Source of the DNA: Pomacea canaliculata
Lineage: Eukaryota > Mollusca > Gastropoda > Architaenioglossa > Ampullariidae
Assembly (NCBI RefSeq): GCF_003073045.1
Contig: NC_037598.1
Span: 124,001 to 188,000, forward strand
Length of the DNA stretch: 64,000 nucleotides
Direction: 5' to 3'
Shown: in pieces, positions 25,282 to 53,554 of the stretch
How the letters are laid out: every line of letters begins with the position of its first letter
Position numbering within the stretch: the stretch's first letter is position 1
Notes under the pieces: model-generated
The model's input: the letters and a program-made list of their open reading frames with translations, nothing else
What the model was told of the DNA's origin: nothing
Databases searched by the model: none
Translations under genes and position numbers: made by a program

Positions 25282-28060
25282 GTGACCATCATGTGTGAAT
25301 ATTACAGTCACCAGAGGTCAAAAGGTTTCTGTCTGGCGAGGTTAGCATTTCTAGTAGTTTACATAAGTCCTGTGTGCTCTGCCCGGTCATGGAAGGAAAG
25401 TCACTTTTACCGACTGGAGAGAGATTTACTGACTAACTACAGCCACACTGTGAGGCCAGTCATGGAGGTCAACACACCAACCAACATCTCAGTCACCTTC
25501 ACACTCATGTGTATCTACGAGGTAAGAGCAACATATTGTAATCTTGAAACTGAATGAAATTCATAATGTATGATAGTCTGTGTAAGAAACATGGCAATCC
25601 TTGGTATTCTTTTGTCCCAAAATAATAATGGTGTAAGTCAAAAATAATTATAAAATAAAAAAATATATAATAGTTGTCTGTTAGTAAAGAAATGTATGCT
25701 ACAAACTATATATTTGGTATGAAAGTGGCATGATTGTATGTATATCTCCATGCAAAGGTCGACGAAATAGCACAAGCCATGACCCAGAATTCCTTCGTGA
25801 CTTTGACCTGGTTCGACGAATTCCTGCAGTGGGATCCACAGGAGTATGGAGGAATACAAACCACAGAACTATCCAATCGACAGGTCTGGCTGCCGGTGAG
25901 ACAACACTCTGTTAACAATACTATCAAGATATACTCAGATAAAGAAAAAACTGTAGCTAAGTACCTTAGTATAATGCAGACAGAGAATAAACATGTAAAA
26001 CATGGCACGCATCTCTTTAAGTTAGCTGCATTTTAACTAACGAGTTAAGAAAACTCCTTAGGTCGAGTAAGAAGATGTTAATATTAAGCATATTTTTGTG
26101 TATATCCGAATAAAAACTTTCATTCTTAAAAAAAAGCACAAACAAACAAAAAAATGTAAGAAATTTCATTTTTACTAATACGCCGATACTCCTCAACCGA
26201 CTGTTCTGGAAAAAAAAATGACCTACACTATTTTGATGGAACTTTCTGTCCAAAGTTAATCCACGTTCTAAATACGGTATCCGGCTCCCTTATATTTTCA
26301 CCTGATGAGATGTCAAAAATAATCTTCAAGTCTAACGGCCACGTGACCTGGTTTCATCAAGATGTGTGGAAAACAATATGTCGGATTGATATTACATTCT
26401 TTCCGTTTGACACCCAACAATGCGGCTTTAGTGTCGCCCTGTGGACATCTTTGAAATCACAGGTAAATAGTTCTGACTTTTTGTATCTTATACCTTTATA
26501 AAACTTCCTTCCACATTGCCACAATTTGATTTTTTCAATTAATTTTTTTTTCTAAAAAAATCATTGACTTTCACACAATGATATATTTTTTCATGATAAT
26601 TTATAAATAAATACTTGAACAGCATTATTTTAGTATTAATGATAAATAAATGTCATCACACAAACAATTAACCGTTAAGCAAATCGTATCATGAAACTTT
26701 GATGTCTTGAGCTTGTTTATTTGTTTGGTGCAATTTGTTTTCCAAACAGGCTCTGTTTACTGATGTCTCTGTCAGAAAAGATGAAATCGCCTTCACTGAA
26801 AACTCTGAATGGGTCCTCCTGTCTTTCGAAGCAACAACTGGAGAAACTACTTATTACAATGAAACTTACTCCAGTGTTACAATTAACTTTTATTTAAAAG
26901 TGAGTTTTCGAGATTTTATGATTTTTTTTCTGCATGACATGAACCCATATCTCTGCTGAAAGTAGTATATCAAGAAACTAAGCGATAAAGTATAATAGAT
27001 GATGTTCAGAGCTATGACTACGAGGAGGATAATGGCGACTCTGTGCTCCTAAGTTCAGACGGTTGGTTAGAACTGTTATATTGACCGGAGGAAGAAATTA
27101 TTGAAATTATTTGTATTCACGTTCAAAGTTAAGTTTTGTTTAATTACAGATCCGCTGGCTTTGCTGTAGGATACATTTTTGACAATTTAATGAATTCATT
27201 GAAGATCTTGCCCTGTTTCCTTTCTCAGAGAAGAAGAAAGTTCCACACGCTAACTCTGATGGTTCCCAATGTCACCCTGGCGCTGCTGTCGTCTCTGGTG
27301 TTCGTACTTCCGGCGGACTCCGGGGAGAAAGTGTCTTTTATCATGGGACTTCTTCTGGCGACTGGTGTCAGCATCACCGTGTTGATGGATGTAATGCCGA
27401 GATCTTCTTTACACATCTCCTTCTTAATGATATATATTACTACAGTGAGGTAAGGCATAAGAACATTTTACAAAATTTATTTCCATATTTAAGTCTGCAG
27501 TATTATGTAGTTTACTGTCAAGAAAACGTTTAAGTGTGTAATAGGACTCGTGCGTGTAGTTAACTAGGGGTGGGGAATCTTTTTTTTTCAATCACAGGAT
27601 TATGCCCTGCTTGTATAAAAGTTAAGAGTATGTGTTAGGAATAAGAATTTTGTATTGTTCTTCCTTCAGTATGACTACAGCACTAAGTGTTGTTGCTTCT
27701 GCGTATATAACCTCCTGCTGCTCTACTGATGGACCGACTGATGCGAAGACAATCACGATTGTCAGGGTTCTATGTAGGATCACCGGAACAGACTTTCCAA
27801 TTTTGAAGAACAGAACAGAAAACATTCAGCAACTGGAAGTCAATGGCTGCAGCAAAACGCTTCAGACGTATGAAATGTACATTAATTCTGCCTCCGACAC
27901 AAAGGAAGATAACTGCCTCACAGGGGAGACAACAAAAGAAAGGATCACTTGGATGGATCTGGCTGCTTCGTTGAACTTAGTCTGTTTCCGTATATCATTT
28001 AGTGTTGTTGTTGTGACAACAATAATATTGATTATTGTTCTTTTGCTCGGATCGTCGTAA
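25282..28060 (+). CDS. D1: nicotinic-receptor-like Cys-loop channel subunit, 448 aa
   Basis: Exons: 25282-25521, 25758-25895, 26256-26462, 26750-26899, 27229-27449 and 27670-28060, with phases 0,0,0,0,2 and a joined length of 1347. Order: signal peptide; ligand-binding domain with RLERDLLTNYSHTVRPV, WDPQEYGG and the Cys-loop C-RIDITFFPFDTQQ-C (13 residues between cysteines); M1 after RRR; M2 GEKVSFIMGLLLATG; M3; short cytoplasmic loop; M4; end LLLGSS. Glu at -1' and Leu at 9' of M2 fit a cation channel of the nicotinic type. Loop C reads TYYNETY, with no adjacent cysteine pair, and the loop A Tyr is Leu. ACh binding as in alpha subunits is therefore unlikely; it may bind another ligand or act as a structural subunit. 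ATG 25291 is an alternative start. Introns contain nothing else I can name. Confidence 0.88.
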
Positions 28061-28119
28061 ACTTGGATATCTGTTGTTACTCACGACAAGGAACTGGAAA
28101 GTGTTTATACTTCTTAATA

Positions 28120-52400: not shown

Positions 52401-53554
52401 TTTTTAACAACGAGACTTTTTCCTCTTTCGAAGTTAGCTTTAAAGTGCAAGTGAGTGTTTTGCTCTGTACATTTCTGGCTCTCATGCTCTGTTCCTCTGT
52501 GTGTGTGTGTGTGTGTGTGTGTGTGTGTGTGTGTGTGTGTGTGTGTGTGTGTGTGTGTGTGTGTGTGTGTGTGTGTGTGTGTGTGTGTGTGTGTGTGTGT
52601 GTGTGTGTGTGTGTGTGTGTGTGTGTGTGTGTGTGTGTGTGTGTGTTTTAATGTTTTAAGACTTATTCTCTTTCCTGTCTGTCGTTTTGGCCGGTGTCAG
52701 AGGAGAAGAGTGTTTCACACCCTGACTCTCATCGTCCCCAATGTTATACTGGCGTTGCTGGCGTCCATGGTGTTCATCCTTCCAGCCGAGTCCGGGGAGA
52801 AGATGTCGTTTATAATGGGGCTGCTGCTCACTACTGGTGTCCACATGACAGTGCTAATGGATGTCGTGCCGAGTTCTTCACTGAACATCTCCTATCTAAT
52901 GATTTACATTACTGCACTGAGGTAAAACTTACAAACTAGTACAGTACAGAAGTCTGCTGCACGTCTAAGTTCATTATCTGGATTTCCTGGGAATACCTTC
53001 AGTCAATACAACAATACTACTGTCTAGTTGTGGACTGTTATTTTTACTAACACAAATGAATAATTTATTGTTTAATAATGTATTTTATGTCGTTTATACC
53101 ACCCTTTCAATGTTTCCCTCTCTCTTTCAGCATGACAACAGGGGTAGCAGTGGTGGTCTCGGCATGTATTCTCTGCTGCCACTCTCTTGAAGGTTTGGTT
53201 GGGTCCAAGACAACAACACTTGTCCTCTTTCTACGCAAGTTGACAAGAGAAGGGACTAGACTAGGCAGAAAGAGGGCAGAGGACATCAAGTGTGACAATG
53301 TTTATATAGAAGACTGCCAGGACAATTCGAGAGCAGCTGACAAGCACCTTACAAGATTTTCCACACAAGATGTCAGCAACTCAAAGGGAGATAAGTCTCT
53401 GTCCAGGAGAACAGCATCAAGGGAAGCTGATCAAGAAATGATGAGTTGGAGGGACGTGGCTGCTACTCTGGACCAAGTCTGCTTCCGTATCTGTATTAGT
53501 ATTGTTGTGGGAATGACAGTCCTGCTTATCATCGTTCTTTATTTAGGCTCGTAA
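49438..53554 (+). CDS. D4: nicotinic-receptor-like Cys-loop channel subunit, 440 aa
   Basis: Exons: 49438-49623, 50848-50985, 51410-51616, 52304-52450, 52701-52921 and 53131-53554; joined length 1323. The ATG at 49438 is the first in frame after a stop at 49372 and gives a signal peptide MWLRYLFLSTCHVLVGG. Then come HIYRLERDLLSNYSPTVRPV, WDPDEYGG, Cys-loop C-PMDITYFPFDSQQ-C, M1, M2 GEKMSFIMGLLLTTG with His at 14', M3 and M4 ending LYLGS. It is the most divergent of the four: exon 4 is one codon shorter, loop C has the aromatic changed (NNETFSSF), loop A has VVN, and VPSSS follows M2 where the others have MPRSS. It also lacks the loop C cysteine pair. AATAAA at 53938-53943 follows. Confidence 0.87.
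52499..52646 (+). repeat. (GT)74 microsatellite inside the fourth intron of D4
   Basis: A pure GT run of 148 bases makes up more than half of a 250-base intron (52451-52700). It starts 48 bases after the donor and ends 54 bases before the acceptor. Confidence 0.95.

Follow-up and report, generated by a model that had tools for sequence, protein, structure and literature searches.

What kind of receptor is built from nicotinic-like subunits that lack the signature of acetylcholine (ACh) binding? The question arises at a locus of the gastropod Pomacea canaliculata (Mollusca; Ampullariidae), where a window of 64,000 nucleotides (RefSeq assembly GCF_003073045.1, contig NC_037598.1, positions 124,001 to 188,000; coordinates below count from the first base of this window) carries four such genes in tandem, here called A to D. 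A first-pass annotation of the window suggested that they may be an independent molluscan set of channels gated by ligands other than ACh, perhaps chemosensory and comparable with the chemotactile receptors (CRs) of cephalopods. Our analysis leads to a different reading, in which we place middling confidence, i.e., that this is a tandem array of non-alpha-type subunits of nicotinic-like cation channels, of the kind known from the lophotrochozoan expansion of such genes, whose products would act mainly as complementary or accessory partners. The array mainly adds a case to that known expansion.

Four intact genes and a relic

Plus-strand splice models gave all four genes full-length open frames on a shared plan of six exons, with intron phases 0,0,0,0,2 and GT...AG boundaries in 20 of the 20 introns (5 per gene; Table 1). 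Each predicted protein matched Pfam families PF02931 (Neur_chan_LBD) and PF02932 (Neur_chan_memb), with E values of 1.7e-42 and 3.8e-10 for gene A and best values among the four of 6.4e-43 and 9.3e-12. The domain layout comprises an N-terminus that resembles a signal peptide (judged by eye), a ligand-binding domain (LBD), membrane segments M1 to M3, a short M3-M4 loop, and M4. A to D are Cys-loop receptor subunits of the nicotinic branch. The earlier count of four complete nicotinic-like subunits in tandem is therefore borne out by the spliced models, the intact frames, and the Pfam matches to the LBD and the transmembrane (TM) region. The limits proposed for the array were also good, since 53554 is the final base of the last stop codon and 25282 lies 9 bases upstream of the in-frame ATG at 25291. 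Gene D has a shorter N-terminus than the other copies, and the assignment of its start codon is less certain. Protein identity to A is 61% for B, 49% for C, and 51% for D. In a seven-row tree of A to D and three solved alpha chains, A to D clustered apart from the alphas with a support of 100/100; the branching order within A to D was not resolved.

The first count overlooked a decayed fifth copy between C and D (at 46.5 to 47.8 kb). Its exon-1-like pieces occupy three different frames (best tblastn E, 1.8e-4), while its exon-2-like piece is weak when taken alone (best E, 0.16) and lies in a frame that soon reaches a stop; no later exons of the relic were found. Beyond A to D and this relic, the window yielded no further members of the array, the best stray tblastn match having an E value of 0.044. 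Two side observations concern the same interval: short pieces at 35.4 to 36.2 kb that resemble EB modules (described below) lie between genes B and C, and a long dinucleotide run sits in intron 4 of gene D, directly ahead of the M1-M2 exon.

Table 1. Positions in the window of the four genes, the relic, and the residues discussed in the text (aa, amino acids)
Feature	Position	Strand	Details	Product	Basis
Gene A	25291..28060	+	six exons: 25291-25521, 25758-25895, 26256-26462, 26750-26899, 27229-27449, 27670-28060 (including stop)	445 aa	splice model, Pfam
Gene B	29922..33883	+	six exons: 29922-30152, 30312-30449, 30868-31074, 32309-32458, 32812-33032, 33454-33883	458 aa	splice model, Pfam
Gene C	41022..45383	+	six exons: 41022-41249, 41415-41552, 42533-42739, 43094-43243, 43812-44032, 44972-45383	451 aa	splice model, Pfam
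Gene D	49438..53554	+	six exons: 49438-49623, 50848-50985, 51410-51616, 52304-52450, 52701-52921, 53131-53554	440 aa	splice model, Pfam
Fifth-copy relic	46477..47805	+	between C and D; exon-1-like pieces in 46477-46705, exon-2-like piece 47755-47805		tblastn
Loop D Trp (Trp55 equivalent)	A 25809-25811; codon starts B 30363, C 41466, D 50899	+	present in 4/4		alignment
Loop A position (Tyr93 equivalent)	A 26268-26270; B 30880-30882; C 42545-42547; D 51422-51424	+	A Leu, B Leu, C Ile, D Val		alignment
Loop B Trp (Trp149 equivalent)	A 26442-26444; codon starts B 31054, C 42719, D 51596	+	present in 4/4		alignment
Loop C tip sequon	A 26858..26866; B 32417..32425; C 43202..43210; D 52409..52417	+	A NET, B NTS, C NES, D NET
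M2 Gly 6' codon	A 27346..27348; B 32929..32931; C 43929..43931; D 52818..52820	+			alignment

Binding site, loop C sequon, and pore

Residues were compared on a MAFFT alignment of A to D with the solved chains of alpha6, alpha4, muscle alpha, and beta3. Binding-site and M2 positions follow the standard numbering of nicotinic ACh receptors (nAChRs). On this alignment, the presence of the Cys-loop (C-x13-C with FPFD) and the absence of the vicinal cysteine pair of loop C, both claimed before, are confirmed in each of the four proteins, and the loop A Tyr is indeed replaced by Leu, Ile, or Val. Loop C is shorter than that of the alphas by two to three residues. Because the loop C pair (0/4) and the loop A Tyr are missing, A to D are not nAChR alpha subunits. 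Absence of this pair is the defining mark of a non-alpha subunit. Judged from their predicted sequences, all four also fit the non-alpha definition in its functional sense, in that their complementary face has the loop D Trp while the cysteine pair typical of alphas is missing from loop C. The same two absences do not show that ACh recognition has been lost, because a non-alpha subunit looks so; of the first-pass claim, the missing alpha signature stands and the loss of ACh recognition is weakened.

Four of the five positions of the aromatic box stay aromatic in every gene, and loop A alone is lost, along with the disulfide. The loop B Trp is kept throughout, although the motif had been given as MWTS or LWTS and this is wrong for gene D (LWTS in A, MWTS in B and C, MWTA in D). 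Its neighbours are altered, Ser/Thr148 to L/M/M/M and Tyr151 to S/S/S/A in A to D. Both Tyr positions of loop C carry aromatics (Y/Y/F/F at 190 and Y/Y/Y/F at 198). Apart from the loop B motif, the earlier list of residues was correct, but it omitted the loop D Trp, the loop C aromatics, the sequon in loop C, the loss of the Cys-loop sequon, and Gly 12' of M2.

M2 reads GEK with Glu -1', Gly 6', Leu 9', Gly 12', and Asp 20', each in 4/4 genes, so that the first-pass calls of Glu -1', Gly 6', and Leu 9' hold throughout; the paralogs agree with one another at 18 to 21 of the 22 M2 positions. GEK, Glu -1', and Leu 9' are the marks of a predicted cation-type pore. At 6', the three solved alphas compared have Ser where A to D have Gly. 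This Gly is not unprecedented, since the annelid channel Alpo4 has Gly 6' together with Glu -1', Leu 9', and Asp 20'.

All four paralogs carry an N-x-[S/T] sequon at the tip of loop C. Its Asn shares a column with alpha Cys192 in the MAFFT alignment, while HMMER gaps the Cys pair and sets the Asn immediately after it; because the two programs place the Asn differently, it is true only to within two columns that the sequon stands in place of the pair. The third residue alternates between Thr (ACT) and Ser (AGC) among the copies, so that the sequon has outlasted the individual residue. Two further sequons of the extracellular domain (ECD) are common to the four proteins. The sequon of the Cys-loop, found in 4/4 reference chains, is lost in 4/4 window proteins, with B and C carrying one two columns further on. 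The three shared ECD sequons compare with a mean of 0.43 in column shuffles, at least three being reached in 79/20000 shuffles. Since the paralogs are related, this result is suggestive and not proof, and it suggests that the ECD sequons are conserved beyond chance.

A glycan close to loop C has a precedent: according to the available text of PMC7601176, N-glycosylation of muscle alpha at 187 (Egyptian mongoose) or 189 (Egyptian cobra) sterically blocks the docking of alpha-neurotoxins; the glycan passage in the available text of PMC10338036 concerns N167 of Alpo4. One may picture a subfamily in which a conserved N-glycosylation site at the tip replaces the loop C disulfide and accompanies a Gly 6'/Gly 12' pore, with sugar-capped channels gated by a non-ACh ligand or shielded by the glycan from peptide toxins. 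We consider such a subfamily unlikely. The loop C sequon is one curious conserved feature in a mostly ordinary find.

Selection, relationships, and the role of the array

The ratio of nonsynonymous to synonymous substitution rates (dN/dS; NG86) was 0.21 to 0.33 over the common region in the six pairs of genes, at an overall dS of 1.0 to 1.3. By part, it was 0.21 to 0.30 in the LBD, 0.10 to 0.21 in TM1-3, 0.15 to 0.45 in M4, and 0.31 to 0.78 in the M3-M4 loop. YN00 gave overall values of 0.27 to 0.38, with no estimate in 9 of the 30 comparisons. Ratios well below 1 indicate that A to D have been kept by purifying selection. The original description, a tandem family of nicotinic-like channels without the ACh signature of alphas, is thus supported, and the family is moreover under purifying selection. 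Conservation among A to D, scored on few columns of our own choosing (18 principal and 10 complementary), was lowest on the principal face (0.426 versus 0.585 in the rest of the LBD; one-sided permutation p, 0.035) and highest on the complementary face (0.667 versus 0.585). The solved alpha6, alpha4, and muscle alpha chains show the reverse pattern (principal, 0.759; complementary, 0.467; rest, 0.538). The idea that the pocket has been under diversifying selection, as in CRs, was considered and rejected, the signal being weak (one-sided p of 0.016 for the full set of 37 chosen columns, 0.15 when loop F is left out, and 0.035 for the principal loops alone).

Solved structures are a biased sample, and rankings against them are no substitute for a tree with lophotrochozoan sequences. 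With this limit, the top solved chain for the LBD of B was the non-alpha beta3 (124.5 bits), followed by alpha6 (115.8 bits), and that for the TM exon of C was the non-alpha beta2 (46.3 bits). LBD identity of A to D is 27 to 33% to the three solved alphas and 30 to 34% to beta3. Like A to D, beta3 has neither Cys-Cys nor a loop A Tyr (it has Phe) and carries the Trp of loops B and D; unlike them, it has Asp at the loop C Tyr190 position, where A to D have Tyr or Phe. The part of gene B from M2 to just past M3 (32917-33032 plus 33454-33577) matched none of 177635 solved sequences in phmmer at E values up to 10.

We favor the partner reading because the nearest chains are beta3 (LBD of B) and beta2 (TM exon of C) and because the complementary face is kept best. 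It builds on the intact genes, their subunit architecture, purifying selection, the non-alpha principal face, and the cation-type pore residues, and we infer the partner role. In a pentamer, the subunits would chiefly supply the complementary face or serve as accessory partners, offering the side with the conserved loop D Trp to the binding site of a neighbouring subunit. Their own principal face, which lacks the loop A Tyr and the loop C disulfide and may bear an N-glycan at the loop C tip, would not form a classical ACh site. They would line a cation pore of Glu -1', Gly 6', Leu 9', and Asp 20', and differences between the copies may adjust the pore and the assembly of the channel to given tissues or stages. 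Several results weigh against this role. The ranking of solved chains is not uniform; alpha6 comes first for the whole-protein profile (198.3 bits) and alpha7 for the TM region of B (45.4 bits). TM1-3 of A to D are 23 to 33% identical to the three solved alphas, i.e., no better than the LBD, while the alphas are mutually 69 to 89% identical. The complementary-face excess is not significant, the difference in the window has a p value of 0.15 over all loops but F, and the columns are few and chosen by us. The principal face keeps the loop B Trp and both loop C aromatics, which is more than a pure partner requires, and an alpha-type partner gene was not found in the window.

The setting of the array is a familiar one. 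In the available text of Jiao et al. 2019 (PMC6896357), the molluscan and lophotrochozoan nAChR expansion resembles the present genes in its tandem arrays, LBD-NTM architecture, and diverse principal sites and, in C. gigas, in mostly lacking the Cys pair. The pair is kept there by 33 of the 132 nAChR genes of C. gigas, 13 of those 33 having a full principal site, so that 99 of the 132 lack it by subtraction. Tandem arrays hold 72 of the 132 genes in C. gigas and 140 of the 217 in P. f. martensii (Pinctada). Unlike A to D with their 5 introns each, the tandem copies of that expansion are mostly intron-poor (49/72 in C. gigas). The same text already proposes diverse ligands for the expanded molluscan nAChRs and reports gill, gonad, developmental, and stress-related expression. 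Since most nAChR genes of C. gigas lack the pair and most lie in tandem arrays, the reading given in the first-pass annotation is weakened.

The main rival is that A to D are orphan receptors of the Alpo4 type, i.e., homopentamers or heteropentamers formed within the array, with a non-ACh ligand of their own in a remodelled pocket (Trp of loop B, two loop C aromatics, Trp of loop D, and an aliphatic loop A). We hold this to be a substantial possibility, if short of an even one. Alpo4 of Alvinella pompejana (PDB 8bx5 and others) is described in the available text of PMC10338036 as an isolated member, an annelid nACh-like orphan channel that forms a homopentamer, lacks the vicinal disulfide, and binds CHAPS in an aromatic cage, with no binding of or response to ACh or serotonin found. 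A to D share with it the missing disulfide, the Trp of loops B and D, both loop C aromatics, and the four pore residues Glu -1', Gly 6', Leu 9', and Asp 20', and the survival of four of five aromatic-box positions in every gene points the same way. The greater variability of their principal-face loops is what would be expected if ligands had diverged, although these loops may simply be relaxed. Alpo4, however, has an aromatic in loop A (F103) as well as Leu 13' and Met 16', where A to D have Leu/Ile/Val, Val, and Thr; its match to the LBD of B, at only 92.1 bits, ranks behind those of beta3, alpha6, alpha9, and others; and the loop C tip sequon, should it be glycosylated, could screen the site.

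The first proposal, an independent set of chemosensory channels that would parallel the cephalopod CRs, appears to us decidedly improbable. The available text of a review (PMC11526382) describes CRs as tandem-clustered, intronless, derived from nAChRs, and not activated by ACh; tandem clustering and nAChR descent are common to both sets, and the variable principal face is compatible with such a role. All four snail genes have 5 introns each, against the intronless CRs. The octopus receptor CRT1 (PDB 8eis, 9e6b) matches the TM region of B (32.0 bits) less well than alpha7 and beta2 do, and it is not among the best 60 of the 335 matches for the LBD of B or the best 60 of the 98 for the TM exon of C. 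On the introns and on these rankings among solved chains, closer kinship with CRs was rejected as the leading reading and is not supported. The features in question recur in the general molluscan expansion with its varied expression, as described above. A chemosensory role is possible, and nothing in the sequence favors chemosensation over that general expansion. That A to D are decaying or nonfunctional duplicates we regard as extremely improbable: the relic between C and D and the shorter predicted N-terminus of D are in keeping with decay, but the four frames are intact, their introns are canonical throughout, and dN/dS lies well below 1 at the dS observed.

Other features of the window and meaning of the array

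Several short Cys-rich exon-like pieces resembling EB or EGF-like modules lie on the plus strand at 8989-9216, 17185-22000, and 35421-36204. Of seven EB-like peptides tested, those at 18.7, 20.8, and 21.7 kb scored above the Pfam EB cut-off and the other four below it; the piece at 8989 is repeated at 6240, 6946, and 16323. An array of 18-base tandem repeats near the EB-like pieces (17735-18375), with open frames on both strands that would encode short repeated peptides, is probably a minisatellite, and a second array has a 34-base unit (62464-62735). Long TG and CA dinucleotide runs occupy 52499-52627, i.e., the run within gene D, and 56927-57007. On the minus strand, an open stretch of 406 codons (57206-58426) is Thr/Ser-rich, resembles a mucin, and matched no Pfam family at E values up to 1. 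No RNA families or tRNAs were found in the window (tRNA search by ARAGORN, bacterial setting).

The roles of the extra lophotrochozoan nicotinic-like genes are described as unknown in the available text of PMC10338036. Four intact paralogs with shared oddities (i.e., the loop C sequon and Gly 6') make a handy set for asking whether the products of such genes are silent partners in ACh receptors or themselves act as receptors that recognize new ligands. The loop C glycan, if it is real and kept in other species, would be an unusual way to close or re-tune the classical site.

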